From an uncultured Anaerolineae bacterium (GTDB lineage: Bacteria > Chloroflexota > Anaerolineae > Anaerolineales > Villigracilaceae), in assembly GCA_903822545.1 (NCBI GenBank), contig CAIJPN010000229.1, positions 1 to 45,561 on the forward strand: DNA of 45,561 bases. The letters run 5' to 3'. Every line of letters starts with the position of its first letter. Positions within the stretch are counted from its first letter, which is position 1. The notes under the pieces were generated by a model that did no database searches, was not told where the DNA came from, and saw nothing but the letters and a program-made list of their open reading frames with translations. The position numbers and the translations under genes are program-made. Below, piece by piece: positions 23,620 through 41,835 of the stretch.

Positions 23620-23688
23620 ACGATAAATATCGTCAACATATGCTCTTGACGTAACCACGCGCGCTAAATATAATATGAACGTTCACAT
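23620..23688 (+). promoter_or_regulatory. Promoter, LacI-type operator and upstream palindrome of the GH1 operon
   Basis: TTGACG (23646-23651), a 17-base spacer and TATAAT (23669-23674) are followed by operator core TGAACGTTCA (23676-23685), the arrangement seen at 8393-8435. Upstream, ACGATA-AA-TATCGT (23620-23633) is a perfect inverted repeat with a two-base centre. The first region keeps only its right half (AAATATCGTC at 8373-8382) before the matching ATATGC. The rest of the 320-base divergent gap is AT-rich. Confidence 0.85.
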
Positions 23689-23751
23689 TATTACGCGTCA
23701 GTGGCACCCCTTTTTCAAGCCCAAAGCCCTGTCCTTAGGAGCACAAAACAC

Positions 23752-25131: not shown

Positions 25132-25222
25132 TCCTGTTACATCCTGCCTGGATTTCAGGTAATGAGCAGGCGGCATTTCTACCAGACCCGCCAAACCATT
25201 TCCGATGAGAAGGATATCTCCA

Positions 25223-26770: not shown

Positions 26771-26799
26771 GCCAAGTAATGCTTAAAAGGATGTATTCC

Positions 26800-27978
26800 A
26801 TGCCCGAAATCACTTTTTCAACGCTTGGCTGTGAAGAAGGAAACCCAACAGTTTTGGCACTGCTATCTCAATTTGAACAGCAGTTCCACTGCAATGTGAA
26901 AGTACGTTGGCTGAGTTGGAAAACCGGACATGCGGAACTGAACCAGATTGCCTTTGAGCGTCGGGGGGCGGATGTTTCCGTAATTGGCAGCACCTGGCTG
27001 GGAAGCTACATCAGTATGCAGTCTTTGCGGGCCTTTCTGCCAAATGAAATCCGAGCACTTGGCGGTTTTGATGCTTTTGTACCCGTTGCCTGGGCGCCTG
27101 GGCAGGATTACGAAAATAAACAGCCTTATGCAATCCCCTGGTCTCTAGGCATTTTCATGCTTTTCTATCGCTATAAGGGACTGGAATCCGCTGGGATTGA
27201 TATCCATCAGGCTTTTACAAGTATTCATCAGTTGGAAGAAACGGTGGCTTTGCTGGCACAAGCAGGGCAACCGCTGCCGATTATATTGCCTGGTGCAAAC
27301 ACGCCTGAAATCCTGCATGGAATTGCTCCTTTTGTGTGGAACGAAGGGGGGCATTTCAGGTCGAAAGATGGTTTGAAAATGCTCTTTGCATCTCCGGAGG
27401 CAGTTCGCGGCATGGCCCGCTATTTTAAGTTAACTCGGCATGTAAACCCCAAGTTTCTCCCTAGCTTGCAAGGTAATACCGGTCATCTGTTTGTAAACGG
27501 TCAAGCCACAATAGGGCTTTTATCGTCCGAGGCTATTTACCACCCCACTCTTTCGCAGGCCGAAATGGCTGAAACTTGGGGGGTTGCGCCAATGCCTCCG
27601 CAATCATTTGTGGGCGGAAATTGCCTGGTCATCTGGCAACACACAAAAAATGAACGATTGAGTAATGAATTGGTCTATTTTCTGACAGGCCATGAATGCC
27701 AGTTGCGACAAAGCCACATCAATCGCCAATTTCCGGCTCGTTTATCGGCCTTACAAAACATGGATATTCCCCAAATATCTCTATTGAGTGAATTACAGGG
27801 TGGCCGGACGTATCATTCCGCACGATTATGGGGCGTGGTTGAAGATAACTTAATCCGTGCTTTGTCGTCGGTATGGCATCGTTTCTTGGCAGAGCCTGAA
27901 TTGGATGTAGAAACGCTTCTGGGAGAAGAGTTATCTCCACTTGCCAGGCGTCTGGCCGCCACCATGTCGAGCTATTAG
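26800..27978 (+). CDS. Family 1 solute-binding-like protein without a signal peptide
   Basis: 392 residues with the start at 26800, chosen because AAAGG lies nine bases upstream; earlier in-frame starts (TTG 26767, ATG 26779 and 26791) would add only a short charged segment. The protein aligns by eye with extracellular sugar-binding proteins: ITFSTLGCEEGNPTV at the first strand, DVSVIGSTWLGSY, YAIPWSLGIFMLFYRYKG and FVNGQATIGLLSS are all typical positions. No hydrophobic leader or lipobox can be made from any start, so it should stay in the cytoplasm. It contains no helix-turn-helix. It may be a cytoplasmic sugar sensor or chaperone, or a binding protein that lost its leader. It follows the GH57-like gene after 29 bases. 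Confidence 0.72.
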   Translation: MPEITFSTLGCEEGNPTVLALLSQFEQQFHCNVKVRWLSWKTGHAELNQIAFERRGADVSVIGSTWLGSYISMQSLRAFLPNEIRALGGFDAFVPVAWAPGQDYENKQPYAIPWSLGIFMLFYRYKGLESAGIDIHQAFTSIHQLEETVALLAQAGQPLPIILPGANTPEILHGIAPFVWNEGGHFRSKDGLKMLFASPEAVRGMARYFKLTRHVNPKFLPSLQGNTGHLFVNGQATIGLLSSEAIYHPTLSQAEMAETWGVAPMPPQSFVGGNCLVIWQHTKNERLSNELVYFLTGHECQLRQSHINRQFPARLSALQNMDIPQISLLSELQGGRTYHSARLWGVVEDNLIRALSSVWHRFLAEPELDVETLLGEELSPLARRLAATMSSY

Positions 27979-28095
27979 ATCAACAAACCTCCTACCAATA
28001 TACATGGCTTGTCAACGCATGTACTCCATTCCTGCGCGAGCACCCAAAGACGGGCAATATCTTGTTTTAAATACTGTTGCTTACAAGGAGAATTC

Positions 28096-29109
28096 ATGAA
28101 CAGAAAACTTTCCATCGGCATTCTTGGAACCGGTTTCATGGGCAATATGCATGCACAGCGCCTTATGAAGCAGGATGATGTTGTTGTCACTGCCGTTTGT
28201 GGCGAAACAATTGCCATGGCCGAGGAATTGAAGTCCAATCTCAAAGTGGGAGATGCTATCGCGTTTGGCAACTTCGACGAGATGCTGGCCACATCCCAAT
28301 TGGATGCGCTCTATATTTGCCTGCCGCCATATGCCCACAGCGGGCAGGAGGAAAAGGCTGCGGAGCGAGGTATTCACCTGTTCTTGGAGAAACCGATCGC
28401 TTACAACATTACCCAGGCAGAGTCCATCGTTGCGGCGATTGAGAAGGCTGGCGTAGTCAGCCAAGTGGGTTATCACATGCGCTTCCGAAAAGCCGTGACA
28501 GCGATAAAGAGAATATCGGCTGGCAAACCCACCCTCTTCGAGGGTCGATTCTGGTGCAATTTTGGCGGACCGCCCTGGTGGACGGACAATGCCAAATCGC
28601 ACGGACAAATCTTTGAGCAGGTTATCCACCTGTACGATATGGCGCTCTACCTCTTTGGTAAAGTGGACAGCGCATCGGGCTTCGCTGCCAATCTGTGCCA
28701 CAACACCGATCAAACCTACACCATCGAAGATACCAGTGTTGGAATGTTGCGCTTTGCAAACGGAGCGTTGGGCATGATCACTGGCTCTAACTGTGCCATC
28801 CCGGAACGATTCATCAGCACCTTCCGCGCTGTCTTCGAACATGTCACACTCGATTACCACTCAACCGGCGATTGGCGTGTCAAAGATGAGTCCACCCTGT
28901 TCGTTCACGATGGAAAAAACATCATCGAACAACAGGATTTCGATGAAAACAATGATGTTTATCTCGATGAAACCCGTGCCTTCTTGGATGCAATTCAGGG
29001 CAAAGCTTCGCAGATTGCCACAGCCCGTGATGGGCTGGATGGCATCCGCCTCGCCAGCGCAGTGCTGGAAAGCGCATCTAGAAATGGTTCACCCATTCAA
29101 CTCTCATAA
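28096..29109 (+). CDS. Gfo/Idh/MocA-family oxidoreductase
   Basis: 337 residues; start at 28096 behind AAGGAG. The N-terminal Rossmann fold (GILGTGFMGNMHA, about 7-19) binds NAD(P), the conserved EKPIAY motif lies near residue 98, and the C-terminal half is the alpha/beta catalytic domain. Family members oxidise or reduce sugars, inositols and their derivatives, and some act as NAD-dependent glycosidases or epimerases by transient oxidation. In this operon it could process an unusual sugar released by the hydrolases. The next gene, also a dehydrogenase, starts 12 bases later. Substrate not readable. Confidence 0.9.
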   Translation: MNRKLSIGILGTGFMGNMHAQRLMKQDDVVVTAVCGETIAMAEELKSNLKVGDAIAFGNFDEMLATSQLDALYICLPPYAHSGQEEKAAERGIHLFLEKPIAYNITQAESIVAAIEKAGVVSQVGYHMRFRKAVTAIKRISAGKPTLFEGRFWCNFGGPPWWTDNAKSHGQIFEQVIHLYDMALYLFGKVDSASGFAANLCHNTDQTYTIEDTSVGMLRFANGALGMITGSNCAIPERFISTFRAVFEHVTLDYHSTGDWRVKDESTLFVHDGKNIIEQQDFDENNDVYLDETRAFLDAIQGKASQIATARDGLDGIRLASAVLESASRNGSPIQLS

Positions 29110-29121
29110 AAGAAAAATACC

Positions 29122-30132
29122 ATGTCTACCCACCCTCGTTTACTTATCAATCTGCCCCCCACTTTTTTCACCCGTCCCGAGTTAGAGCCGCATTTCAAGC
29201 GGCTGGAAAAACTGGCATCTGCCATTCGCCAGACATCGCACAATACCACCGACGAAATCATGCGCGACTTGCCCTGGGCCGAAGCCGTCGTCATGTGGGC
29301 CTGGCCTGGCTTCGGAGATGATGAACTTAAAGTCTGCCCTGACTTGAAATTCGTCGGTCAAATCAACACCACCGGTCAACACGTGCGCGCCTGCTTAAAG
29401 AAGGGCCTAGCAATCTCGGAGGTGCGCCATGCCTGGTCGCCTTCGGTTGCCGAACTAGCGCTGATCCTGATGATGAGTGGACTCCGCCAAACCAGTAGCT
29501 ATCACATTGCCATGACCAAAGGAACTGAACACTGGCTGCGCGACTTCCCCGCCGACATTGATGCCCGCGAACGCCAACTGTCCGGACGCTCAGTCGGCAT
29601 CGTCGGCTTCGGTGGTATTGGGCAGCACCTGGCGCGGTTGCTCGAACCATTCCATGTGACTTTGCGCATCTATGACCCGTATCTGCCCGCTGAAGTTGCC
29701 GCACAGTATGGCGCTCAACCAGTCAAGTTGATGGAACTCATCCAGGAATCTGAAGTTGTGGTGTTGTGCGCAGCCAACACAGATGATGCGCATCACCTGT
29801 TGGATGCCCAAGCGATCAAGGCTTTACGCAAGGATGCCGTGCTGGTCAACGTAGGACGTTCGATGCTGGTGGACATGGCTACCCTGGAAGAACGCCTGAA
29901 GCAAGGTGATCTGATCGCCATGCTCGATGTGTTTGACCAGGAACCACTGCCCGCCGATTCACCGCTGCGATCCCTGCCCAATACCTACCTGACCCCCCAC
30001 GTCGCAGGTGGTATCCTGGAATCCGTGGAACGGTCCCTGGCCTGGCTGGCTGATGACCTCGAGTCGCACCTGAACGGCCAGCCGCGCAAATTTGCCGTAA
30101 CAGAAAAGATGCTCGTCTCATTCCCCGGATGA
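29122..30132 (+). CDS. D-isomer-specific 2-hydroxyacid dehydrogenase family protein
   Basis: 336 residues. A catalytic domain flanks the NAD-binding Rossmann segment [18 protein letters not shown] (about 155-172); [19 protein letters not shown] and [11 protein letters not shown] are the conserved C-terminal blocks, with the histidine of the last in the active site. The family reversibly reduces 2-ketoacids to D-2-hydroxyacids. In sugar operons such enzymes may handle glyoxylate, hydroxypyruvate or keto-sugar acids; which applies here is not visible. Its stop overlaps the GH130 start by four bases (ATGA), so the two are translationally coupled. Confidence 0.9.
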
Positions 30133-31307
30133 ACAATAATACCTTTCCTCAACGCCTGACCGCCCTGCGTGAAAAGCACGCCGCCCTACTGGCCCGCCCC
30201 AACGGCGTGAACCTGCTCTGGGATAACGGGATATTCACACGCTGGCAGAACCCGGTCGTTACCGCCGCCCATGTTCCATTGGAGTGGCGCTATGACCTGA
30301 ACCCGCAAACCAACCCATACTTGATGGAACGCCTGGGGGTCAACGCTGCCTTCAACCCTGGTGCTCTGGAACATGAAGGCAAAATCCTGCTTGCCTGTCG
30401 GGTGGAAGGATACGATCGCAAATCCTTTTTCACCATCGCCGAAAGCGAAAATGGGGTAGATAACTTCCACTTTTGGGATGAACCGATCGTTCTGCCCGAA
30501 ACCGATGACTCCGACACAAACGTGTATGACATGCGTCTGACACACCACGAAGATGGCTGGGTCTATGGCGTATTTTGCACCGAGCGCAAAGACCCCAACG
30601 CCCCACCCGGCGACCTCTCCAGCGCGGTGGCCCAGGCTGGAATAGTACGAACGCGCGACCTGAAAACCTGGGAACGCCTGCCCGACCTGAAAACCAGCTC
30701 GCCCCAACAGCGCAACGTTGTGCTGCACCCGGAATTTGTGGATGGCCAATACGCCTTCTACACCCGCCCACAAGACGATTTCATTACAGCAGGCAGCGGT
30801 GGCGGCATTGGCTGGGGATTGAGCGCTTCGATAAACCCAGCAGTCGTGGAGAAAGAAATTATCGTCGAGACCCGCAACTACCATACAATCAAGGAACTCA
30901 AGAACGGCGAAGGTCCGACCCCGTTCAAGACCGAACGCGGCTGGCTGCACCTGGCGCACGGGGTTCGTAACACTGCCGCAGGACTGCGCTATGTTCTATA
31001 TCTGTACTTGACCGAACTGGAGCGCCCTTGGGTAGTTACACATCAACCGGGTGGCTACTTTCTTGCGCCAGAGTTTGATGAGCGCGTTGGCGATGTCAGC
31101 AACGTGGTTTTCTGCAATGGGTGGGTGGCTCGCGCCGATGGCAGCGTTCTAATCTATTACGCTTCATCTGACACGCGCATCCATGTTGCCACCAGTTCAC
31201 TTGACCAGTTACTTGACTACACCATTAACACTCCGATAGATGGATTCCGGTCCTATGCCAGCGTCCAAACTCGTCTTGATCTGATTCGGCGCAATCGCGC
31301 ACGATAA
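30129..31307 (+). CDS. GH130 phosphorylase, mannosyl-glucose phosphorylase-like
   Basis: 392 residues of the five-bladed propeller family GH130. [20 protein letters not shown] (75-94) and [14 protein letters not shown] (131-144) contain the phosphate-binding arginine region and catalytic Asp D134; the text [17 protein letters not shown] and VFCTERKD resembles subfamily 1, the 4-O-beta-D-mannosyl-D-glucose phosphorylases. Those enzymes split Man-beta-1,4-Glc with phosphate into mannose 1-phosphate and glucose, after an epimerase has made that disaccharide from mannobiose. An epimerase-superfamily protein is present at 12397, though secreted. No signal peptide, consistent with a cytoplasmic phosphorylase. 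Family certain, subfamily likely. Confidence 0.88.
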
Positions 31308-31380
31308 GGCAACTCTATAGAATCGGGTTACTTTGCTCGATTATTGCCAAAAGCCCAACCTGATGAAAGTGACTTGCTAA

Positions 31381-32187
31381 ATGACCGCGCGAGCAATTCC
31401 CCTTTGGATAGATAATACTCCGGGCGTTGACCCGAACATTTTACAGAAACCACCCTACCTTGAACCTTATCTTGTGGCGGGTAATGGCACTCATGCATGC
31501 GTCATCATCTGCCCGGGTGGTGGTTACTGGATACTTGCCCCCCATGAAGGCGAACCTGTGGCGCGATGGTTGAACCAGTTGGGTATATCGGCTTTCGTAT
31601 TGCACTATCGCACCACCCCATACCATCACCCATACCCGCTATTAGATGCCCAACGCGCTGTGCGCCTGGTGCGCGCCCGGTCAAGCGAGTTCAACATTGA
31701 CCCACAGAGAATTGGCGTGTTGGGTTTCTCGGCGGGTGGACACCTCGCCGCCACCGTTGGCACACACTTCGATGCAGGCGATACCGACGCAAGCGATCAA
31801 ATTGAACGAGTTTCGTGTCGCCCGGATGCACTCATCCTGTGTTACCCAGTAATCACATTCGCCGAATTTCGCCACGAGGGAACGCGCCAAACATTACTGG
31901 GGGAAATGGCTTCTCCTGAGCACATTCTCTTGCTTTCCAATGAAAAGCACGTCACAGCGGACACACCGCCTGCTTTCTTGTGGCACACCGCCAACGATGA
32001 AGAAGTCATGGTCGAAAACAGCCTGCTTTTCGCCAGTGCTTTAAGCCGAAACAAAGTGCAATTCGAACTGCATGTTTTTTCTGATGGAAAACATGGGCTC
32101 GGGTTAGCGCAAGAACACCCCCAACTATCGTTATGGATTAAAGCCTGTGAGAACTGGTTGCGCTTGCTGAATTTTTGCGTGCCATAA
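31381..32187 (+). CDS. Alpha/beta-hydrolase, acetyl-esterase type
   Basis: 268 residues. The oxyanion-hole segment CPGGGYW (44-50), nucleophile S117 in GFSAGG, a late Asp region (HTANDEEV) and a histidine in GKHGLG form the expected triad. This resembles bacterial esterases of the BD-FAE/carbohydrate acetyl-esterase group, which remove acetyl groups from xylan, mannan or pectin fragments. No signal peptide, so it probably acts on imported oligosaccharides. The next gene is a second, unrelated deacetylase 13 bases on, and the pair suggests acetylation of the substrate at more than one position. The 73-base gap before it holds nothing I can identify. Confidence 0.85.
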   Translation: MTARAIPLWIDNTPGVDPNILQKPPYLEPYLVAGNGTHACVIICPGGGYWILAPHEGEPVARWLNQLGISAFVLHYRTTPYHHPYPLLDAQRAVRLVRARSSEFNIDPQRIGVLGFSAGGHLAATVGTHFDAGDTDASDQIERVSCRPDALILCYPVITFAEFRHEGTRQTLLGEMASPEHILLLSNEKHVTADTPPAFLWHTANDEEVMVENSLLFASALSRNKVQFELHVFSDGKHGLGLAQEHPQLSLWIKACENWLRLLNFCVP

Positions 32188-32200
32188 ACTGGAGTATCCC

Positions 32201-33181
32201 ATGCCTTACTTTGACTTGCCCCTCGATCAACTAAAAACCTATCGGCCAGAAAGCACTGCTCAGTCTGACTTCGATGATTTCTGGAAAATCACGCTGGAGA
32301 CTGTCCGCTCACACCCGCTTGATGCACATTTCACCCTAGTAGACAACGGTCTGAAAGCGCAGGAAGCCTTCGATCTGACCTTCCGCGGCTTCGGCGGACA
32401 ACCGATCAAGGGCTGGTTCATCCTGCCTCGCAAGCGCACCGGTCTGGTGCCCTGCGTGGTGGAATTCCTGGGCTATACCGGTGGGCGTGGATTCTCTACT
32501 GACTGGCTACTATGGCCCAGCCTGGGCTATGCCCAATTGGTGATGGACACGCGTGGACAGGGCTCTTCAGTCGGCTGGACACATGGCGATACACCTGACT
32601 TGTACGGGGAGGGTGGCAACCCAACGGTTTCCGGGTATATGACCCAGGGCATCTTGGATCCGAAACATTATTTCTACCGCCGCGTCTTCTCCGATGCTGT
32701 TCGCGCCGTGGAAGCTGCTCGAGCACACCCAGAGGTAGATTCCAATCGCATCTGCGTCACGGGTGGTTCGCAGGGCGGCGGCATTGCTATCGCTGCCGCC
32801 GCTCTTGTCCCGGATGTAGAAGCAGCAATGCCTGATGTCCCATTCTTGTGTCATTACCGCCGCGCCACCGAAATTGTAGACTCGTACCCCTATCAGGAAA
32901 TCGCCCGCTTCTGCAACGTTCATCGCGATAAGGTTGAGACCGTTTTTCGCACGCTGTCCTATTTCGATGGTGTGAATCTGGCGAGCCGAGCGCGGGCAAA
33001 AGCGCTTTTTTCTGCTGGTCTTATGGATATGGTCTGCCCGCCTTCTACTATCTTCGCAGCTTACAACTACTGGGGTGGAATGGAAAAACAAATCATCACC
33101 TACCCGTACAACGGACACGAAGGTGGCGGCGGTTTCCACACGCAAGAAAAAATCAAATTCCTACGCGGACTGTGGGGCTGA
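32201..33181 (+). CDS. CE7 acetyl-xylan esterase / cephalosporin-C deacetylase family
   Basis: 326 residues, the usual CE7 length. The family motifs are intact: RGQG (118-121), nucleophile S190 in GGSQGGG, an Asp in SAGLMDMVCPP and the His-Glu pair in YNGHEGGG. CE7 enzymes are cytoplasmic hexamers that remove acetyl groups from short sugars taken up by the cell. The GGAG just before the ATG fits a normal start. It lies next to a second esterase, so deacetylation appears to be a main step for this substrate. Confidence 0.92.
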   Translation: MPYFDLPLDQLKTYRPESTAQSDFDDFWKITLETVRSHPLDAHFTLVDNGLKAQEAFDLTFRGFGGQPIKGWFILPRKRTGLVPCVVEFLGYTGGRGFSTDWLLWPSLGYAQLVMDTRGQGSSVGWTHGDTPDLYGEGGNPTVSGYMTQGILDPKHYFYRRVFSDAVRAVEAARAHPEVDSNRICVTGGSQGGGIAIAAAALVPDVEAAMPDVPFLCHYRRATEIVDSYPYQEIARFCNVHRDKVETVFRTLSYFDGVNLASRARAKALFSAGLMDMVCPPSTIFAAYNYWGGMEKQIITYPYNGHEGGGGFHTQEKIKFLRGLWG

Positions 33182-33276
33182 AGCATGGCAAATAGATTAC
33201 ACCCTGATCTGTGTCCTAAAAACTGCGCGCTGAGTTCAAACAACCCGCAATCCAACCAGCCAACTCACGCACTCCG

Positions 33277-33342
33277 CTTGGAGAAAACTTATACCGATGC
33301 CCAAACCCAATTTGATCTCCTTTGTGGCCGACCAGTGGCATG
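33277..33342 (+). repeat. First copy of an imperfect direct repeat (sulfatase leader)
   Basis: This stretch, starting CTTGGAGAAAACTT and ending GACCAGTGGCATG, matches 35182-35246 (CTTGGGAAAACTT ... GACCAGTGGCGTG) at DNA level across the leader and the first 15 or so codons of the sulfatase gene. The two copies enclose the methyltransferase and corrinoid-protein genes. Confidence 0.65.
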
Positions 33343-33389
33343 ATGCAGCAATGACTAACGTGTCGGAAAGAAAGAAAACCCATGTCTGA
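33297..33389 (+). pseudogene. Sulfatase N-terminal remnant
   Basis: An ATG with GGAG upstream opens a 30-codon frame whose first 14 residues (MPKPNLISFVADQW) match 11 of the first 14 of the intact sulfatase at 35201 (MPAPNLIFFVVDQW). Similarity ends at once after this, and the frame runs eight bases into the methyltransferase gene. It is either the stump of a second sulfatase or a duplicated leader. Confidence 0.7.
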
Positions 33390-34449
33390 CAATCTGACAT
33401 CGATAGAACGAGTAGAAATCGTTTTGCGCGGTGGAATCCCCGACCGCGTGCCAGTTAACTTGCATAACTTCATGATGAACGCCCGAGCTTCGGGGTTATC
33501 GTTTCCCGATTATTTTCAAAATGGCGAAGCCATGGCGGAAGGACATATCAAAGCCTGGCGCGAGTTTGGCCACGATGTCATCCTGCTCGAAAACGGCACC
33601 GTAGCATTGGCTGAAGCGTGCGGCTGCCAGGTGGAGTATCTGGATGATAGTGCTCCAGTTCATATTGCCCCTGCCATCAAAAGCCTGGATGATGTGGGAA
33701 AACTAATCAAACCAGATCCCTATAAAACCCACCCCCTGCGGGAAAATCTGAAGGCCACCCGTACCGTTGCCAATGAAATTGGCCAGCGGGTTTATGTTAT
33801 GGGGCGTGCAGATCAGGGGCCATTCTCCCTGGCATCCATGCTCATCGGGATCGAAAATTTCCTTTTTGCCGTTGTTGACACGGCTTCTCAGAATAAATTG
33901 GAACAACTGCTCGATTTCTGCCTTGATGTTGTCTATACTTATGCCCTGGCCCAGGGTGAGCAAGGAGCACGCATGACATCCATCGGGGAATCGCTCTCTG
34001 GGCCGGATGTGTGTTCTCCCCGTGTCTACAAAAAATATGAGTGGGGGTATGCTAAACGCCTGATTGAACAGTTGAAAGCCAATAACCTGCCGCTGGCTTA
34101 TCATATTTGCGGTAATGCCACCCGCATTGTTCACGACATGACGGAAACGGGGGCAGCCGTACTCGAATTAGATTACAAGTGCGATTTACCCACTATCAAG
34201 CAAGCAACGCAAGGCAAAACTACCATCCTCGGTGTGATTGATCCCAGCGGGGTGTTGGCGCTCGGAACACCTGAAGATGTCAGGGGAAAAGTAAGAGAAG
34301 AACTGGATGTGCTGGCTCCAGGCGGTGGACTGATTTTGGGGCCAGGCTGTGCTCTGCCGGCTACAACCCCTGTTGAAAATATCCATACCTTGGTTGAAAC
34401 TGTACACCATTATGGGCGCTATCTGCCAGATGGAACGCTCATTTCTTAG
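33382..34449 (+). CDS. MtaA/MtbA/CmuA-like zinc methyltransferase (UroD superfamily)
   Basis: 355-residue TIM-barrel protein. The zinc site of corrinoid-dependent methyltransferases of this superfamily is complete: H241-x-C243 (AYHICGNA) and C323 (GPGCALP). Uroporphyrinogen decarboxylases lack these residues, so a methyl-transfer role is favoured. Known relatives move a methyl group between a corrinoid protein and coenzyme M, tetrahydrofolate-linked steps or a methylated substrate. The corrinoid protein is encoded next, 89 bases downstream. Lying among deacetylases and a sulfatase, it may remove O-methyl groups from sugars; that is inference. No corrinoid-reactivating ATPase is seen in the window. 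Confidence 0.85.
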   Translation: MSDNLTSIERVEIVLRGGIPDRVPVNLHNFMMNARASGLSFPDYFQNGEAMAEGHIKAWREFGHDVILLENGTVALAEACGCQVEYLDDSAPVHIAPAIKSLDDVGKLIKPDPYKTHPLRENLKATRTVANEIGQRVYVMGRADQGPFSLASMLIGIENFLFAVVDTASQNKLEQLLDFCLDVVYTYALAQGEQGARMTSIGESLSGPDVCSPRVYKKYEWGYAKRLIEQLKANNLPLAYHICGNATRIVHDMTETGAAVLELDYKCDLPTIKQATQGKTTILGVIDPSGVLALGTPEDVRGKVREELDVLAPGGGLILGPGCALPATTPVENIHTLVETVHHYGRYLPDGTLIS

Positions 34450-34538
34450 ATGTTCTTCTGCCAGGTGCTCCAACATCAGCATTGTTGAAGAAATCTACCC
34501 AACCCTAAGCCCAAGAACCCAACATGGAGAAATAGATA

Positions 34539-35174
34539 ATGAACGAAGAACTCTCAAACCTTTTCAACGCCATTCTTGAAGGAGATATGCCGAGCGCCCA
34601 AAGTGCGGCCCAGGCTGCCCTGGATGCGGGTTTAGACCCTGGACTGATCTTATCGGATGGCATGATTGCCGCAATGAAGGAAGTGGGTAGACGTTTTGAA
34701 GACGGAGATTATTTTGTACCAGAGATGTTGATTTCCGCTCGAGCCATGCAAGCCGGTCTGATCCTTCTGAAACCACACTTGCAAAGTGGTAATGTGAAAT
34801 CCGCAGGGAAGGTTGCCATTGGTACAGTTAAAGGTGATTTGCACGATATTGGTAAGAATCTAGTGGCGCTGATGCTCGAAGGTGCAGGGTTTGAAGTTAT
34901 AGATCTTGGAACAGATGCTGCGCCTGATGTTTTTGTTAAAGCAGCGCAAGAAGGTGCTCAGTTGATTGGCATGTCTGCCCTGTTGACTACCACCATGAAT
35001 AGCATGGATATGACCATTCAATCGCTCAAAAATGCAGGATTGCGGGATAATGTGAAGATTATTGTGGGCGGCGCTCCTGTGACACAAGAATTTGCCGCCA
35101 AAATCGGTGCAGATGGTTTCGCGCCGGATGCCAGCCGGGCGGTTACGCTGGCGCAATCATTGCTTGAAAAATGA
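34539..35174 (+). CDS. Corrinoid (cobalamin-binding) methyl-carrier protein, MtaC/MtbC-like
   Basis: 211 residues: an N-terminal helical cap (about 1-85, B12-binding type 1, with DGMIAAMKEVGRRFEDGDYFVPEM) and a Rossmann-like cobalamin domain (about 88-211). The base-off ligand motif D100-L-H102-D-I-G105 is intact, followed by the GVDLGTD-like segment (VIDLGTDA) and a GG near the end (VGGAPV). The length is standard for the family. It should carry a methyl group on cobalt between a methyl donor and an acceptor, in the cytoplasm. GGAGAAA precedes the ATG. It is paired with the zinc methyltransferase upstream and a sulfatase downstream. Confidence 0.93.
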   Translation: MNEELSNLFNAILEGDMPSAQSAAQAALDAGLDPGLILSDGMIAAMKEVGRRFEDGDYFVPEMLISARAMQAGLILLKPHLQSGNVKSAGKVAIGTVKGDLHDIGKNLVALMLEGAGFEVIDLGTDAAPDVFVKAAQEGAQLIGMSALLTTTMNSMDMTIQSLKNAGLRDNVKIIVGGAPVTQEFAAKIGADGFAPDASRAVTLAQSLLEK

Positions 35175-35181
35175 ATTAATA

Positions 35182-35246
35182 CTTGGGAAAACTTTCCTTT
35201 ATGCCTGCGCCAAACTTGATTTTCTTTGTAGTTGACCAGTGGCGTG
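35182..35246 (+). repeat. Second copy of the sulfatase-leader repeat
   Basis: Counterpart of 33277-33342; it includes the leader and the first codons of the intact sulfatase gene. Match is imperfect but covers both noncoding and coding bases. Confidence 0.65.
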
Positions 35247-36679
35247 GCGACGTGCTTGGTCACCTTGGAAACTCTGCTGCCCACACCCCCAACCTGGATG
35301 CCTGGGTGGCCAGTTCTGCGGTTTCATTCCGCCATGCCTTTATACAAAACCCTGTGTGCACCCCCAGCCGTTGCTCTTTCATGACAGGATGGTATTCCCA
35401 TGTACGCGGTCACCGTACGATCTACCATATGCTCCAGCCGGATGAACCAATGCTGTTGCGTTCTCTCAAACAGGCTGGGTACTATGTCTGGTGGGGCGGC
35501 AAGAATGATGTTGTCCCGGCGCAATATGGGTTTGATGCCTTCTGCGACTTTCGCCTGTCATATCCGGATCGCCTCTGCCGTCGAGATTTGCATTCTTACA
35601 ACGATTGGCGGGGAGCGCCCGACCAGCCTGGCTTTTACTCTTTCTACGCAGGCCGTTTAGATAAGCCGGCCAATTACCCTGCAGACGAACCTTTCTACTT
35701 CGATATGGATTGGCACACTGTCCTCAGTGCTATAGACTTTTTGGCTGACCCGCCGACGAACCAACCTTGGTGCTTATATATCAACATCAGTTTTCCTCAC
35801 CCGCCGTATGGCGTGGAAGAACCCTGGTATAGCCTGATAGACCGCCATCATCTACCGCACCGTATTCCGGCCCCGCCATCCTGGGAAGGTAAACCGGCGA
35901 TGTTGACCGGGATTTATGAAAATCAGAACCTGCAAAGTTGGGGAGAAGACCAATGGGATGAACTGCGGGCAACATATTACGGGATGTGCGCGCGCACCGA
36001 TCATCAGTTTGGATTGCTTTTGGACAGGCTAAACAAAAGCGGATTGAACAATTCAACTGCCATCTTCTTCTTTTCTGATCACGGTGATTTTGCTGGAGAT
36101 TATGGTCTGGTCGAAAAATCTCAAAATACATTTGAAGATTGCCTGGTATGTGTCCCTTTCCTGGTAAAACCGCCAGCCTGGATTCCTATCCGGCCAGGCA
36201 TTAGAGATGCCCTGATAGAACTTGTGGATTTTTCTGCTACGGTGGAAGATTTGGTAGGCCTACCGTCTACCCACACCCATTTTGGGCGCTCACTGTTGCC
36301 TTTGATAGCAGGCGATATAGATACCCATCGTACAGCAGTTTTTTGTGAAGGCGGGCGAATTCAAGGCGAAATCCAGGCCATGGAAACCCTGGATGAAAAA
36401 CAAGGCCGGAACTGGCTTTACTGGCCGCGCCTGGAAGTTCAACATCGTTCAGATGCCGCCCACACCAAGGCAGTCATGTGCCGCACGGCAGAATACAAAT
36501 ATGTCTATCGCTTATACGAGCAAGATGAGCTTTACGATTTACGCAGCGATCCACAGGAACTGCACAACCGTATCGCCGATCCAGGGCTTGAGAATATTCG
36601 CCAAGCGTTGAAAGACTGCGTATTAGAATTTCTGCTTGGTACAGGTGATAACGTGCCACATCAATTGGACCGGCGGTAG
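35201..36679 (+). CDS. Type I sulfatase (S1 family)
   Basis: 492 residues with the start at 35201 (MPAPNLIFFVVDQWRGD, supplying the metal-binding Asp). The modification motif C53-T-P-S-R, whose cysteine must become formylglycine, lies in NPVCTPSRCSFMTG; FFFSDHGDFAGDYGL supplies the second metal-binding block. No signal peptide is visible, so it probably acts inside on imported sulfated sugars, which is less common than periplasmic location. A maturase (anaerobic anSME type or FGE) is needed and is not in the window. Last gene of the plus-strand unit; substrate could be a sulfated sugar, but phosphonate-hydrolase-like relatives share this fold. Confidence 0.9.
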   Translation: MPAPNLIFFVVDQWRGDVLGHLGNSAAHTPNLDAWVASSAVSFRHAFIQNPVCTPSRCSFMTGWYSHVRGHRTIYHMLQPDEPMLLRSLKQAGYYVWWGGKNDVVPAQYGFDAFCDFRLSYPDRLCRRDLHSYNDWRGAPDQPGFYSFYAGRLDKPANYPADEPFYFDMDWHTVLSAIDFLADPPTNQPWCLYINISFPHPPYGVEEPWYSLIDRHHLPHRIPAPPSWEGKPAMLTGIYENQNLQSWGEDQWDELRATYYGMCARTDHQFGLLLDRLNKSGLNNSTAIFFFSDHGDFAGDYGLVEKSQNTFEDCLVCVPFLVKPPAWIPIRPGIRDALIELVDFSATVEDLVGLPSTHTHFGRSLLPLIAGDIDTHRTAVFCEGGRIQGEIQAMETLDEKQGRNWLYWPRLEVQHRSDAAHTKAVMCRTAEYKYVYRLYEQDELYDLRSDPQELHNRIADPGLENIRQALKDCVLEFLLGTGDNVPHQLDRR

Positions 36680-36832: not shown

Positions 36833-37444
36833 TTAAAATTGGCTATAAGACCCGCTCATCCCGCGATACTCGATGAACGGCTCGTTGATGATTTTGGCGG
36901 CCAGTTCCATCTGGCAGGATTCTTCGAGACAGGTGGACCAGTGGAAGGCTTCGTCGAGAGTCTGGCCGGTAGCGAAGCTGCCATGTCCGCGCAACATGAT
37001 GATTTTGTAGTTTTTCAGCGCTTCGGCGACTTTGTTCGCCATCTGCGGCGTGCCGGATGCGAATTCTTCGGTCACGACCGGGATTTTTTTGAGCAGGTAG
37101 GATGCTTCGTTGTCAATCGGCACGAGCTCGTCACGAGAGAAGGAAAAGGCCACAGCTGTGCGCGGGTGACAGTGGCAGACTGCCAGAGCGGGCGTGTTCA
37201 GATAGATGGCGCGATGTACCAGTAATTCGGTCGAGGCCAGCACAACGTTGCTGTCGTTTTTATCCAGCCGGGTTTCGATCAGATCGTGTGGCTTGAGCCG
37301 TCCGAGTTGCGCACCGCGCCGTTTGATGATAACGCGGTCGCCGAGACGGATGCTCAGGTTACCGCCGTGCGAGCTGATGAGCTGCGCCGTGAACAAGTCT
37401 TCGCCAATTTCGCGGAACATTTCGTAAATTCGTGGATCAATCAT
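36833..37444 (-). CDS. Class II aldolase/adducin-family protein (fuculose-phosphate aldolase type)
   Basis: 203 residues, the size of L-fuculose/L-rhamnulose phosphate aldolases of the small subgroup. SSHGGNLSIR near residue 24 gives the phosphate-binding loop, HCHPRTA (92-98) the first two zinc histidines and RGHGSF the third. It would cleave a sugar phosphate to dihydroxyacetone phosphate and an aldehyde. It overlaps the oxidoreductase gene by four bases (ATGA) and ends the rha operon, which already has a true RhaD, so it may act on a different deoxy-sugar phosphate whose aldehyde product is then oxidised by the neighbour. Confidence 0.88.
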   Translation of the reverse strand: MIDPRIYEMFREIGEDLFTAQLISSHGGNLSIRLGDRVIIKRRGAQLGRLKPHDLIETRLDKNDSNVVLASTELLVHRAIYLNTPALAVCHCHPRTAVAFSFSRDELVPIDNEASYLLKKIPVVTEEFASGTPQMANKVAEALKNYKIIMLRGHGSFATGQTLDEAFHWSTCLEESCQMELAAKIINEPFIEYRGMSGSYSQF

Positions 37445-39222
37445 AGTAAATTCTCCAATCCCAACTCCGCCAGCTTCTTCGGGGTTGGTACGCCGTTCTC
37501 GTCCCAGCCGCGGGTGCGGTAGTATTCTTTGAGCATTGGCTCCAGTTGCGAAACCCAGCCCTTCGATGGGCCATCGGTCGGGGCTTCGGTGAGCAGTCGG
37601 GGCGGCAGACTATCGTTCTTGCTGGTGAAACCTTCCCGATTGTTGTACAACCGCTCCAGGTTCCAGACGCGCTCGCCAACTTTGATAAGCTCGCCAGTGG
37701 CATACGGGATACCCGTTACTGCGCCGAGCACGCGAGCGAAATATTCATCCGCAACGCCCATGTTGGTGAATTTGCAGATAACGAGCGAGTCAATCGCCGC
37801 GTTGGAGTTCTGGTTCAGAATGACAAAAGCGGACTTACCCTGCACCTGGAATCGGTCAATCAGCTTGGGTAGGCCGAGCACTTCCAGGCCAATCATGTTG
37901 CCGCGCATGTGACATCCGCCGCGGTTGGATGTGGCGTACAGCAAGCCCTGACCCTGCAAACCGCGCGGGTCGTAGGCGGGCATTTCCATGCCTTTAGCCG
38001 TCATCGAAAGTTCGGGATGCCCGTATTTTGTCGCCAGTCGCAGCGAGCCATCGGCCAGTTCCGTGCCGATGTCGCGGCGATAGGCCATCGCTTCGACGGT
38101 GGGAGCCAACTGGTCGGCGCGGCCAAAGCGCAAATCTGAGTCGAGATAACCCTTCTCCGAGAGTTCCATCGCGCAGGCAATGGTTGAACCCGCTGAAATG
38201 GTATCCAGCCCCAAATCGTTGCACAGCGCGTTGACTTCGATAATCGCGGGCAGGTCGTCGATGCCGCACTGCGCGCCAAATGCCCAGGTAGACTCGAATT
38301 CCGGGCCTTCGCCTTCCACTTTTTCGGTTTTGCTGATGCGGGTGCAGCCAATCGGGCAGGCCCAACAAGACTGGTTCTTAACCAGGTATTTCTCGGTCAG
38401 TTCTTCGCCCGAAATCGCTTCCGCGCCTTCAAACTGCGTCTGTTGGTGATTTCGGGTCGCCAGCGCGCCAATGTTGTTCATGATGTTCATCAGCACCACG
38501 GTGCCGAACTCGGGCAGTGCCTGGCTAGTCAGCGGGCTGGCCGCCAACAGCTTCTTGGTTTCATACATCAGGAACTTGTAACGTTCCTTGTCCATGATTT
38601 CGGGGCGGGTTGAGCCTTCCACCACAATCGCCTTCAGGTTTTTCGAGCCCATCACCGCACCGGGGCCGCCGCGCGCCGCCGCCCGTTCACGGTCGTTCAT
38701 AATCGCCGCAATCCGGCTCAGGTTTTCGCCCGCTGGGCCGATGCACAGCACGTTGCGTTTGTTGTTATTCTGGCCGAGCTTCTCGGTCAGGGCAAAAACG
38801 CGCATGCCCCACAATTCAGACGCATCATGGAAGGTCACTTCGCTGTTCTTGATTTCAATCCAGACCGGCTTTTCAGCCTTGCCGCGCACAATCAGCACGT
38901 CATAGCCGGTTTTCTTGAACTGCATCCCCCAGTACCCGCCCGAGTTCGCATCCAGCACGGTGCCGGTCAGCGGGCTTTTGGTGGTTACCGAAAAGCGGTT
39001 GCTGGTCTGGTAGCCAGTCGCCGTCAATGGGCCGTTGGTAAAAATCAGCACATTTTCGGGGCTGAGCGGGTCCACATCCGGCCCCACCAAATCCCACAAC
39101 AGCCGCGCACCCAGCCCGCGCCCGCCGATAAACTGCTTGGCCATCTCTATATCGAGCGGCGACTCCTTGTGGGTCTGCTTGGTCAGGTCAATCTCTAAAA
39201 TTTTTCCGTTCCAACCGTTCAT
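37441..39222 (-). CDS. Aldehyde:ferredoxin oxidoreductase (tungsten/molybdenum enzyme)
   Basis: 593 residues from the ATG at 39222, which has AGGAG close upstream; an earlier in-frame ATG contains that site and is rejected. The family start (NGWNGKILEIDL) and FIGGRGLGARLLWD are intact. The [4Fe-4S] ligands are C286-x2-C289-x3-C293 and C483, as in characterised enzymes, and the ARGGPGAVMGSKNLKAIVV segment binds the bis-pterin cofactor. These oxygen-sensitive enzymes oxidise aldehydes to acids and reduce ferredoxin. Placement behind the rhamnose genes points to L-lactaldehyde as substrate. A pterin sulfur-carrier gene lies 11 bases upstream, supporting cofactor supply in step. Confidence 0.95.
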   Translation of the reverse strand: MNGWNGKILEIDLTKQTHKESPLDIEMAKQFIGGRGLGARLLWDLVGPDVDPLSPENVLIFTNGPLTATGYQTSNRFSVTTKSPLTGTVLDANSGGYWGMQFKKTGYDVLIVRGKAEKPVWIEIKNSEVTFHDASELWGMRVFALTEKLGQNNNKRNVLCIGPAGENLSRIAAIMNDRERAAARGGPGAVMGSKNLKAIVVEGSTRPEIMDKERYKFLMYETKKLLAASPLTSQALPEFGTVVLMNIMNNIGALATRNHQQTQFEGAEAISGEELTEKYLVKNQSCWACPIGCTRISKTEKVEGEGPEFESTWAFGAQCGIDDLPAIIEVNALCNDLGLDTISAGSTIACAMELSEKGYLDSDLRFGRADQLAPTVEAMAYRRDIGTELADGSLRLATKYGHPELSMTAKGMEMPAYDPRGLQGQGLLYATSNRGGCHMRGNMIGLEVLGLPKLIDRFQVQGKSAFVILNQNSNAAIDSLVICKFTNMGVADEYFARVLGAVTGIPYATGELIKVGERVWNLERLYNNREGFTSKNDSLPPRLLTEAPTDGPSKGWVSQLEPMLKEYYRTRGWDENGVPTPKKLAELGLENLL

Positions 39223-39233
39223 AATTTCTCCTG

Positions 39234-39515
39234 TCATCCGCCAGCCATCGGCGGGAAAATTGACACTACATCAGACTCTGTTACCGGAGCATTTACATCA
39301 TCCGTGGGATGCCCGTTTATTGTGATGATGACATGTGGGCAGATTTGCCCGTTTCCCGAAAGAGCATCGGGACTATGTTCGAGCAGATTCGCCACAAGCG
39401 CCGGGTACTGTTTAACCAGTTCGGATACCACCGCCCCGACACTTGCTCCTGTTACCGAAACTTCTTTTGTTCCCGCTACTTTGCGCAGGTTGGCGAATAA
39501 CTTTACTGTGGGCAT
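39234..39515 (-). CDS. MoaD/ThiS-family sulfur carrier protein
   Basis: 93 residues from the ATG at 39515 (PTVKLFANLRKVAGTKEV), ubiquitin-like, ending in the required Gly-Gly (FPPMAGG) that is adenylated and thiocarboxylated. It donates sulfur to make molybdopterin dithiolene, used in both molybdenum and tungsten cofactors. The open frame extends upstream to 39545 but without a ribosome binding site and into an inverted repeat. MoaD-like genes are commonly placed next to aldehyde ferredoxin oxidoreductases; here it directly precedes that gene. Confidence 0.9.
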   Translation of the reverse strand: MPTVKLFANLRKVAGTKEVSVTGASVGAVVSELVKQYPALVANLLEHSPDALSGNGQICPHVIITINGHPTDDVNAPVTESDVVSIFPPMAGG

Positions 39516-39531
39516 TTTTCTCGCCTGTGGA

Positions 39532-39618
39532 GTGCGTCGCACCATGCTAAACGGGACATTTCTCAGCCTTGGGAAATCCCGTTTAATGGGTTAATCCTAC
39601 CCGTTTGGTGCGACGTAC
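39532..39618 (-). repeat. Nested inverted repeat with two competing pairings between rhaA and moaD
   Basis: Outer arms GTGCGTCGCACCA (39532-39544) and TGGTGCGACGTAC (39606-39618) pair with one mismatch. Inside, AAACGGG (39549-39555) can pair with CCCGTTT at 39578-39584, extended by a further base and weaker pairs, or with CCCGTTT at 39600-39606, which would lengthen the outer stem. The two pairings exclude each other. It may be a mobile palindromic repeat, a processing site, or an RNA switch ahead of moaD. Confidence 0.65.
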
Positions 39619-39623
39619 CTTCA

Positions 39624-40871
39624 TTATCTCTTCGAGAGTTCCTTCTTCTCGTAATCCTTCACCACCCGCATGAAATCCATCCCAACTGGCACGCCTTTTT
39701 GCTGGCAATAGGTATCCCAAACGGCGCTGGCAGGCATGGCCTTGAGTTCTTCCATCAGTGCCAACCGGCTGGAGAAATCACCTTCGGCTTCGAACTGGTT
39801 GAGCATCTGGCGCGGCTCGAGCAGGGCATTCAGCACTGCCCGGAGCGTATTCCGCGCCCCGATTGTCCACGCGGCGATGCGGTTGATGCTCGCATCGAAA
39901 TAATCCAGCCCGATATGCACGCGATTGAGCGCATCCGCTCGGACGATTTCCTGGGCGATAGCCTGCAAATCATCGTTGAAGGTGACCACATGGTCACTAT
40001 CCCAGCGCACGCCGCGGCTGACGTGCAGCAGGATTTCGTCGATATACAAAAGGATGGATGAAATCTTGTCGGCAATCGTCTCGGTGGGGTGGAAATGCCC
40101 AGAATCGAGCGTCAACAGTACCCTGCGGCTGACGGCGTAGGCGGTGTAGAACTCCATCGAGCCGGTGACGTAACTTTCAGAGCCAATTCCGAACAATTTA
40201 GGCTCAACGGCGTCCAGGTTGTGGAACAACTTTTCAGCCAGGATTTTGTCCAGGGATTCGATGAGCAGGCGGCGGGGCGTGGAGCGGTCCGCCGGGGAAT
40301 CCTTGTAGCCGTCGGGAATCCAGATATTCGTTACAGCCTTAGTCCCCAATTCCTTCCCAAACCAATCACCGATGTTGCGGCTGGCGATGCAGTGCTCCAC
40401 CCAAAACTGGCGAATGGCCGGGTCGCGGTGCGAGAGCGTGAACCCATCGGCGGCGAGGGGGTGCGAGAAACAGGTCGGGTTGAAATCGATGCCGTGATTG
40501 TTGGCTTTTGCCCAATCCTTCCAGCCGGAAAAATGCCTGGGCTCGATGGCGTTGCGATCAACTTTGGTATCGGATTCGAGATAAATGGCGTGCAGGTTCA
40601 GGCGGTGCGAGCCGGGCAGCAGGCTGTAGATCACGTTCAGGTCGCGGCGCAGTTCATCGGCGTTGCGGGCCTTGCCGGGATAGTTGCCGGTGGCAGCGAT
40701 GCCGCCAGTCAGCTCGCCGTCAGGGTTCTCGAACCCGCCGACATCGTCACCTTGCCAGCAATGCAGCGAAATGGCGATTTTTTCGAGCGCGGTCATGGCG
40801 ACATCGGTATCCACACCGAAGGCGGCGTAGCGTTCTTTGGCGAGGGTGTAGGCTTGTTGAATATTATCCAT
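39624..40871 (-). CDS. rhaA: L-rhamnose isomerase
   Basis: 415 residues, clearly the Escherichia coli RhaA type: [19 protein letters not shown] near residue 34, [58 protein letters not shown] and SGHFHPTE match the family through the metal ligands (Glu, Asp and His residues of these blocks). It converts L-rhamnose to L-rhamnulose in the cytoplasm. AAAGGA precedes the ATG. Gene order after it (moaD, AOR, aldolase) is unusual; before it lies rhaD, with an imperfect inverted repeat in the gap. Confidence 0.97.
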
Positions 40872-40887
40872 AATGATTTCCTTTTCT

Positions 40888-40945
40888 GACCGTGGACGAT
40901 AGACCGTAGATCGTCAAATCCATCTCTGGTCTGTCGTCTGCGGTT
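40888..40945 (-). repeat. Imperfect inverted repeat between rhaD and rhaA
   Basis: GACCGTGGACGATAGACC (40888-40905) and GGTCTGTCGTCTGCGGTT (40928-40945) match as inverted arms at 13 of 18 positions and fill nearly the whole 73-base gap. A shorter GACCGTAGAT echo lies inside. It looks like an intergenic palindromic repeat; its right end reaches the rhaD stop. Confidence 0.55.
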
Positions 40946-41790: not shown

Positions 41791-41803
41791 TTTTATCCTT
41801 GCA

Positions 41804-41832
41804 GTAAGGGCGAGCCATCGGCTCGCCCTTAC
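41804..41832 (-). repeat. Perfect hairpin between rhaB and rhaD
   Basis: GTAAGGGCGAGCC (41804-41816), three-base loop ATC, then the exact complement GGCTCGCCCTTAC (41820-41832). It takes up most of the 45-base gap. Without a T-run it is more likely a repeat or mRNA processing/stability element than a terminator. Confidence 0.75.
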
Positions 41833-41835
41833 GAG

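Follow-up and report, generated by a model that had tools for sequence, protein, structure and literature searches.

The window, by which we mean the whole stretch of DNA analysed (45,561 bp, the full contig), carries a gene for a type A UroD-fold methyltransferase (A) adjoining a gene for a corrinoid protein. The two genes are part of a polysaccharide operon; the genes of this operon and of its surroundings are:

23701-25131, + strand: GH1 glycosidase, which opens the co-directional run (PF00232, 2.4e-161)
25205-26770, + strand: GH57/GH38-like protein (PF03065, 1.1e-22; PF01074, 4.2e-6)
26767-27978, + strand: solute-binding protein (PF13416)
28009-29109, + strand: GFO/IDH/MocA oxidoreductase (PF01408)
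29122-30132, + strand: 2-hydroxyacid dehydrogenase (PF02826)
30129-31307, + strand: GH130-family protein (PF04041, 2.4e-24)
31381-32187, + strand: BD-FAE-family esterase (PF20434, 2.5e-21)
32201-33181, + strand: AXE1-family esterase (PF05448, 6.4e-117)
33382-34449, + strand: type A UroD-fold methyltransferase, 355 aa (PF01208, 3.1e-65; H241-x-C243...C323)
34539-35174, + strand: corrinoid protein, 211 aa (PF02607 and PF02310; D100-x-H102-x-x-G105)
35183-36679, + strand: sulfatase with a C-x-P-S-R motif (PF00884, 2.7e-32; CTPSR at residue 59)
39624-40871, − strand: RhaA (above its NCBIfam cut-offs; Pfam)
40945-41790, − strand: RhaD-like protein (RhaD model matched below its NCBIfam cut-off; Pfam)
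41836-43284, − strand: RhaB-like protein (RhaB model matched below its NCBIfam cut-off; Pfam)

Every gene between 23701 and 36679 is on the + strand. Intergenic distances range from −4 to 200 bp, and the largest (200 bp) lies directly 5′ of A. The initial annotation had placed the pair inside a glycosidase operon, and this co-directional run with its GH1, GH57/GH38-like and GH130 genes bears that out. It had also set the pair between two deacetylases and a sulfatase: the BD-FAE and AXE1 esterase genes are indeed upstream and the sulfatase gene downstream, but deacetylation of sugar by both esterases is presumed from their family names. That acetyl, sulfate and methyl groups might be stripped jointly is a reading of the gene order in this one window. 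The L-rhamnose catabolism genes (39624-43284, − strand) adjoin the operon. A promoter-like site matching 11 of 12 consensus positions lies at 23646-23674, just 5′ of the GH1 gene; the frequency of such sites in the window is not above that in shuffles.

The methyltransferase and the corrinoid protein

Both open reading frames and the motif positions given in the initial annotation for a zinc-motif methyltransferase and an intact corrinoid protein were confirmed. Residues 241-243 of A read HIC, with C323 as the third residue of the triad, and A is probably a zinc-type methyltransferase. With 220.9 bits against URO-D (PF01208, cut-off 23.9) it is a member of that family. The best-scoring NCBIfam model was TIGR01463 (mtaA_cmuA), at 185.1 bits and under its cut-off of 235.4; the MtaA model NF040654 gave 136.8 bits (cut-off 400). 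In a FastTree phylogeny of trimmed columns, from which three partial sequences were dropped, A fell in a separate URO-D clade of 79 sequences (support 0.994). Deep nodes of this tree are weakly supported (0.36 and 0.63), and it was built without MtvB, OdmB, VdmB, MtoB, CdmB, MecC, MecE and Mlp1-3. The H-x-C...C triad is invariant across the clade (79/79), as is a D144-Q145 pair absent in MtaA, CmuA, HemE and the related types B and C.

The closest solved fold to the predicted structure (pLDDT 96.9) was MtaA (4ay8 and 4ay7, Z 43.8 and 43.7), and the HemE chains listed reached at most Z 39.0, below the 43.7 for 4ay7. CdmB was absent among the structure-search rows listed for A, an absence that excludes nothing. 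A role in haem synthesis was rejected, since a separate HemE is encoded on another contig of the same genome (C126, 443 bits) and A is without that protein's H-G...H pattern. A is the only URO-D gene on the contig.

The corrinoid protein has both B12 domains (B12-binding, PF02310; B12-binding_2, PF02607), and its residues 100-105 read DLHDIG, matching D-x-H-x-x-G. It scored below every NCBIfam cut-off listed and reached no characterised family among them. The closest relative found (70% identity) is in locus L116, where genes for sugar ABC, LacI, a kinase and A also occur. Other corrinoid proteins of the same genome are distinct: those of contigs C2 (adjoining an MtmB-type gene) and C8 (adjoining an MttB-type gene) share 43% identity with it, and that of C100 shares 38%. 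On the question of placement raised by the initial annotation, neither A nor the corrinoid protein grouped with the characterised systems compared, the aryl-ether enzymes lying outside the tree.

Relatives of the pair in other genomes

In a number of bacterial phyla, relatives of A were found repeatedly in the neighbourhood of genes for sugar use, a recurrence that the initial annotation had proposed to look for with both genes of the pair; named strains with A loci include Anaerolinea thermolimosa, Moorella stamsii and Acididesulfobacillus acetoxydans. Sugar-gene classes were present in 45 of 80 A loci. Among loci of at least 15 kb, 29/45 held at least one such class compared with 2/23 control regions from A-bearing genomes (39 control regions in all, 23 of this length), and RbsC/RbsB-type genes were found in 17/45 versus 0/23; the reference families were defined from A loci, which biases this comparison, although no locus was scored against itself. 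Taken singly, LacI was enriched (p 0.016), and the GFO/IDH, FGGY, ROK, MalF, MalG and corrinoid-protein classes were not significantly so (p 0.065 to 0.53). A within-locus test gave a modest signal: 62 sugar genes lay at most three genes away from A, the expectation being 50.9, and 78 of 5000 shuffles were as high. Genes were predicted with a simple caller, which yields false genes in high-GC loci, and named from Pfam and NCBIfam matches of representatives transferred via BLAST clusters, with SDR, AKR and ADH labels assigned by eye. The window's 2-hydroxyacid dehydrogenase clusters in BLAST with genes from three A operons (L093, L094 and L097), although it and the GFO/IDH protein have only 27-29% identity to their L093 counterparts (27% for the dehydrogenase). 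In a non-systematic view of the loci, the order esterases, A, corrinoid protein, sulfatase was not met elsewhere.

Several loci hold larger sets. L100 combines GH2, LacI, sugar ABC, A, MetV, corrinoid protein, pterin MT2 and RACo genes (partly identified by BLAST cluster), and L162, labelled Blautia, has A with an aldose epimerase, two further URO-D proteins, a PocR regulator, a corrinoid protein and RACo. A corrinoid protein is near A in only 10/81 loci, the window included. More than one URO-D gene is found in 32/81, and in many A loci the second protein has a different triad, mostly HCH or HDH; A is the sole URO-D in four of the sugar operons (L093, L094, L095 and L097).

One such operon also occurs with a sister protein, type B. 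L093 (with A) and L263 (with B) show the same operon; identity is 62-66% for four of the genes in common and 35-37% for two. In this conserved sugar operon, A and B take each other's place. The rhamnose mutarotase gene RhaM adjoins B in 9 of the 10 closest loci, including that of the window's own genome (contig C121), in which B adjoins both RhaM and GH29. In L154 a single run of genes comprises RhaM, B, GH3, GH29 and A, and L192 unites type B with sugar ABC, LacI, RACo, pterin MT2 and MTHFR plus MetV. Because RhaM was found in only 1/80 A loci, the rhamnose link is to B and not directly to A.

The corrinoid reactivator RACo was detected in 38 of 40 A-bearing genomes, the two misses being small assemblies (1.5 and 2.0 Mb); half of the 80 named A loci (40) supplied the genomes searched for RACo and MtaB. 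In a sample around one Acidobacteriaceae genome, RACo was found in 8/120 (7 above cut-off) and A in 1/120, compared with RACo in 4/4 A-bearing Acidobacteriaceae genomes (Fisher 3.6e-5 versus the family sample), although taxon labels of A-bearing genomes, taken from record titles, may differ from the family used for this baseline. The link was weak in a class sample (23/25 A-positive genomes versus 193/273, p 0.014), in which the 25 A-positive genomes (E 1e-40) include several at 29-36% identity that are perhaps other URO-D types. The B12-binding_2 domain was missed in 2/41 genomes, a count that includes MetH-type proteins. Among 35 stretches from A-bearing genomes centred on RACo or a corrinoid protein, a recognised URO-D gene was present in only 10, two of them A loci already counted; the 25 without one include L196 of an A-bearing Acidobacteriaceae genome (G313). 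In several genomes, RACo and a corrinoid protein are accompanied by homocysteine methyltransferase genes, and some of the observed pattern could therefore reflect methionine synthesis.

The initial annotation had also pointed to a reactivating ATPase and a methyl-THF pathway, and RACo and a methyl-THF/Wood-Ljungdahl route were both located in the same genome. The window itself has no MT2 or RACo gene, and the genome's other URO-D and RACo genes are on other contigs. In all, the genome has three RACo and four Pterin_bind genes (one probably FolP), and contig C11 places an AcsE-type protein (MT2) beside RACo and also encodes CFeSP, ACS, CODH and MetFV.

Proposed role and rival readings

Polysaccharides of plants, algae and bacteria contain O-methyl sugars, and the demethylation route for 6-O-methyl-galactose is an oxygen-dependent P450. 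We consider it reasonably probable, from the sequence comparisons above, that the pair provides two components of a B12-dependent demethylase acting in carbohydrate breakdown. A would take a methyl group from an O-methylated sugar, a candidate being an O-methyl-6-deoxyhexose such as O-methyl-rhamnose, and pass it to the Co(I) that the corrinoid protein carries. Two proteins encoded on other contigs of the genome would complete the system: a methyl-THF methyltransferase handing the methyl group on to THF, and RACo keeping the cobalt reduced. The methyl group would then enter the MetF/V and CODH/ACS pathway or methionine. The proteins, motifs, gene order and genome complement are read directly from the DNA, and the comparison among loci is what suggests the sugar link of A; the direction of methyl transfer, the substrate, the zinc and the choice of partners are as we infer them. 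We lean, by a small degree, towards a broader proposal: that UroD-fold corrinoid methyltransferases of types A, B and C form a widespread, undescribed pathway of anaerobic O-methyl-sugar demethylation in Chloroflexota, Acidobacteriota, Verrucomicrobiota, Actinomycetota, Spirochaetota and Firmicutes including Lachnospiraceae, in which B, next to RhaM, may act on O-methyl-rhamnose or O-methyl-fucose and the methyl group may feed THF, acetyl-CoA or methionine.

The sugar O-demethylation first suggested by the initial annotation gains partial support from the sugar setting, the RACo and methyl-THF route, the placement of both proteins apart from the characterised systems compared, the link of B to rhamnose and the L100 and L192 operons, but is opposed by the His-Cys-Cys triad, which PMC10418091 reports as a mark of the S/Se-methyltransferases of the superfamily, the O-enzymes having carboxylates or substitutions. 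A might therefore instead pass the methyl group to a thiol. Also counting against the proposal are the few A loci with a nearby corrinoid protein, the lack of MT2 and RACo genes in the window, the small share of RACo or corrinoid-protein stretches with a URO-D gene, the low identity of the window's two dehydrogenase-type proteins to those of L093, the near absence of RhaM from A loci and the weak RACo link in the class sample. Such an MT2 role, like that of MtaA, in which A would transfer methyl from the corrinoid protein to homocysteine or a similar thiol while the sugar demethylase itself would be a different protein, type B for instance, seems to us unlikely but deserving of weight: the H-x-C...C is identical to that of the thiol enzyme MtaA, which is also the best fold match, and a second URO-D with another triad accompanies A in many loci. 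However, the operons with A as their only URO-D and the substitution of B for A argue against it, as do the pterin-type MT2 already present in L100 and the homocysteine methyltransferase already in A's cluster at L089. Moreover, the triad is not limited to thiol enzymes, because CmuA, which acts on the methyl-donor side, carries it. The same triad, with the proposal made for type 1 mlp clusters in PMC10418091, could point to a methyl-thio or methyl-seleno substrate; we regard this as highly improbable, given the setting of sugar import and catabolism and the lack, homocysteine methyltransferases aside, of any recognised sulfur or selenium gene among the annotated neighbours.

A further reading assigns the pair to a methionine synthesis split over separate proteins (corrinoid protein, homocysteine methyltransferase, pterin methyltransferase and RACo), with its position in sugar operons incidental; such sets occur, whole or partial, in L089, L185, L191, L195 and the contig of L100. 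Yet among annotated A loci a homocysteine methyltransferase is near A only at L089 and on the contig of L100, a separate S-methyl_trans protein serves homocysteine there, and the frequency of sugar-gene classes at A loci also speaks against it, leaving this account improbable. Methanol, for example from pectin, with A acting as MtaA, has little chance of being the substrate: L110 does hold MtaB with a corrinoid protein and A, and MtaB is near RACo in two Acidobacteria stretches and one Spirochaete stretch (L166, L171 and L173), but just 10 of 41 A-bearing genomes searched have MtaB and it was not found in the window's own genome (G000), on which ground this assignment was set aside.

If the demethylase reading holds, a corrinoid route would explain anaerobic clearing of sugar methyl groups and supply acetogenic and methionine metabolism with methyl groups from sugars. 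Many genes labelled only 'uroporphyrinogen decarboxylase family' would also gain a function. The gene sets of the A and B loci point to testable substrates.

Comparison with known corrinoid systems

No description of corrinoid demethylation of sugars was found in the literature searched, whose coverage excludes most subscription journals. MtaA (methylcobamide:coenzyme M methyltransferase; PDB 4ay7/4ay8) shares with A the UroD fold (Z 43.7 over 331 residues, 1.8 Å) and the triad, but differs in sequence (24% identity), in lacking the D144-Q145 pair and in having no comparable sugar setting. CmuA, the chloromethane methyltransferase of plasmid pCMU01, likewise has the triad and is 24% identical over 86% of A, which lies below the TIGR01463 cut-off; PMC13222342 describes CmuA as MT1 and corrinoid protein in one protein. 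The corrinoid protein has the two-domain architecture of 1y80 (6.2e-59) and of MtgC/MtbC-type proteins, but falls below every NCBIfam cut-off listed and stands apart from the C2, C8 and C100 proteins of its own genome.

Type 1 mlp clusters, as described in PMC10418091, resemble the window in joining UroD methyltransferases with His-Cys-Cys to a corrinoid protein, but unite Mlp2 and Mlp3 with a Ram/RACE protein and have a sulfur or selenium connection. The window has a single UroD protein in a polysaccharide operon and RACo on other contigs, and assignment of A to these clusters was rejected on its one URO-D gene and the absence of RACo from the contig. The aryl-ether O-demethylases MtvB/OdmB/VdmB and CdmB are of the UroD superfamily and, according to PMC13222342, follow the same logic of MT1, corrinoid protein, THF MT2 and activase. 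CdmB, the sole aryl-ether enzyme compared, matched A at only 25.8 bits, differs in substrate and gene setting and, according to the same paper, is without zinc. As in these three-component corrinoid O-demethylases, a UroD-type methyltransferase here adjoins a corrinoid protein, with a THF methyltransferase and a reactivating ATPase encoded in the genome.

The methyltransferase–corrinoid protein pair and its genome

The initial annotation read two genes within a polysaccharide locus, encoding a methyltransferase with the site H241-x-C243...C323 and a corrinoid protein with the motif D100-x-H102-x-x-G105, as a candidate anaerobic sugar O-demethylation pair. ORF calls and a domain search confirm that both genes are real and intact, and both motifs were recovered in a sequence check:

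33382–34449, + strand: URO-D family protein, 355 residues (with its relatives, type A)
34539–35174, + strand: corrinoid protein, 211 residues

The pair sits towards the end of a same-strand gene run (23701–36679), which encodes, in order, GH1, a GH57/38-like protein, a solute-binding protein, GFO/IDH, a 2-hydroxyacid dehydrogenase, GH130, BD-FAE, AXE1, A, the corrinoid protein and a sulfatase. Convergent to it are genes for an aldolase, an aldehyde:ferredoxin oxidoreductase, a ThiS protein and L-rhamnose isomerase, aldolase and kinase; the first three (36833–39545, − strand; the third ThiS-like) form a single run adjoining the rhamnose genes. The window, which is the complete contig C229, also contains a phage-type integrase gene at its start (13–1014; PF00589, 2.9e-36) and, in the polysaccharide locus, two adjoining ORFs of 367 and 747 aa (19882–20985 and 21188–23431, both − strand) with no significant Pfam match.

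Genome-wide searches placed neither a corrinoid reactivator (RACo) nor a pterin-binding protein on this contig. The assembly as a whole (5.5 Mb, 237 contigs) holds three RACo genes and four pterin-binding proteins, and its contig C11 carries MTHFR+MetV, an AcsE-type pterin protein adjoining RACo, two CdhD-type CFeSP subunits, ACS and CODH; thus, both supports sought for the pair, a reactivating ATPase and a methyl-THF pathway, are present. MtaB, the methanol-system methyltransferase, was not found in a search of this genome. Besides A, there are six URO-D proteins, including one of the sister type B (site H-x-C...H; contig C121), directly after alpha-L-fucosidase and L-rhamnose mutarotase (RhaM) genes, and two of the sister type C, one adjoining a GH127 gene. 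The genome also encodes an MtmB-family monomethylamine methyltransferase (344 bits; no internal stop in the reading frame) adjoining a corrinoid protein (contig C2; L028 6419–8565), and a UroD protein with S-C-C replacing H-C-C beside a homocysteine methyltransferase and RACo (contig C51; L023 8314–12655), which clusters with MtaA with weak support.

Family, structure and corrinoid dependence

Among NCBIfam models, A scores highest against MtaA/CmuA, at 185 bits, below the cut-off of 235, and the corrinoid protein falls under every NCBIfam cut-off listed. In a tree of 139 UroD-type proteins, which leaves out aryl-ether enzymes and Mlp proteins, A belongs to a 79-member clade (support 0.994) separate from MtaA, CmuA, HemE, B and C, with weak deep nodes. 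H-x-C...C is kept in 79/79 members, as is a D144-Q145 pair that is absent from the five other groups. The predicted model of A (pLDDT 96.9, 55 sequences) has MtaA as its closest fold (Z 43.8 and 43.7), followed by HemE (39.0); DSSP places D144-Q145 at the end of a strand, on the barrel side expected to hold the active site. A fourth URO-D-like protein (379–400 aa, H-C-I/Y/F) lies one or two genes from A in 7/81 loci (L101, L109, L115, L116, L122, L123 and L131).

The corrinoid protein shares 70% identity with its counterpart in L116, and 62% with the Anaerolinea thermolimosa protein (L185); with three others from its own genome, two of which adjoin MtmB- and MttB-type genes, identity is only 38–43%. 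Of 40 A-bearing genomes searched for RACo, 38 have it; a B12-binding_2 domain was found in 39 of 41, a count that includes MetH-type proteins. In a family sample drawn around one Acidobacteriaceae genome, RACo is rare (8/120) and A rarer (1/120, that genome having RACo); all four A-bearing genomes labelled Acidobacteriaceae have RACo (Fisher 3.6e-5). Four RACo stretches from such A-bearing Acidobacteria (L164, L166, L168 and L171) jointly contain type B, corrinoid protein, MtaB and sugar transporter genes, which are absent from the RACo stretch of the A-bearing genome G313 (L196) and from a second stretch of another genome (L167). A recognised URO-D gene occurs in 10 of the 35 RACo or corrinoid-protein stretches fetched.

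Distribution and sugar setting

Matches to A at 1e-40 occur in 25 of 298 genomes of the class. The genomes listed from the same family (13) and the same order (6) have no such match, a pattern that suggests lateral transfer or frequent loss of A. Scanning the species genomes yielded 85 relatives; the named loci are the best 80 of these (identity down to 31%) and are labelled Chloroflexota, Acidobacteria, Verrucomicrobia, Actinobacteria, Spirochaetes, Firmicutes and others. Clustering of the genes around A, with representatives checked against Pfam, identified sugar ABC genes, LacI, GFO/IDH, and FGGY and ROK kinases, and at least one sugar class was present in 29/45 long A loci versus 2/23 control regions (p 8e-6). 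Among long-flanked loci of the nearest relatives, L086 (A 69% identical) has sugar ABC and FGGY kinase genes, and L084 (68%) has genes for mannonate dehydratase, a ManD/galactonate-type dehydratase and RraA. In two genomes a small Ureidogly_lyase-like protein adjoins A (L089 2297–2731; L100 9549–9983). A desaturase-Rieske-reductase fusion of about 760 aa, found at loci with these methyltransferases (L116 11818–14091 and L166 1918–4206; 60% identical), is a possible oxygen-dependent counterpart.

The strongest indication that A and B perform the same kind of step comes from an exchange between two loci, L093 and L263, which share a sugar operon followed by A in the former and by RhaM and B in the latter. 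Identity between them is 65% for FGGY, 63% for GFO/IDH, 66% for a cupin isomerase and 62% for an unknown protein, and lower for the 2-hydroxyacid dehydrogenase (37%) and KDPG-type aldolase (35%). Where B shares at least 56% identity, RhaM is its neighbour in 9 of 10 loci, the window's own genome included. RhaM is missing from all 7 more distant B loci and occurs in 1/80 A loci and 0/39 control regions. The aldolase of one B locus, L261, is 66% identical to the RhaD of the window.

Multi-gene sets around A and B (some gene names in L089, L100, L162 and L192 are transferred from a cluster representative)
L154 (uncultured Lachnospiraceae, the sole A locus with RhaM), one run: RhaM, B, GH3, GH38-like protein, GH29, third URO-D, A
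L261: B, RhaM, two more URO-D proteins, sugar ABC, LacI, corrinoid protein, aldolase
L089: A, RACo, corrinoid protein, homocysteine methyltransferase, MetV
L100: GH2, LacI, sugar ABC, A, DUF1638, MetV, corrinoid protein, pterin MT2 (second methyltransferase), RACo
L162: A, aldose epimerase, two more URO-D, PocR regulator, corrinoid protein, RACo
L192: type B, sugar ABC, LacI, RACo, DUF1638, pterin MT2, MTHFR+MetV

Proposed reaction and known systems

Most probably, A accepts the methyl group of an O-methylated sugar and loads it onto the corrinoid protein. Hydrolases of the operon would release the sugar, and MT2 and RACo would be supplied by genes at other sites in the genome. Chemistry raises the strongest objection to A acting on a sugar: PMC10418091 ties His-Cys-Cys to S/Se substrates. 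CmuA takes its methyl group from chloromethane with a triad identical to that of A, so the triad does not settle the matter. A could instead be an MT2 that passes a methyl group to a thiol, which we consider rather unlikely.

The components themselves are of known kinds. The papers found in our literature searches do not describe the substrate class or the gene settings, and in them we saw no report of an activity for A, B or C.
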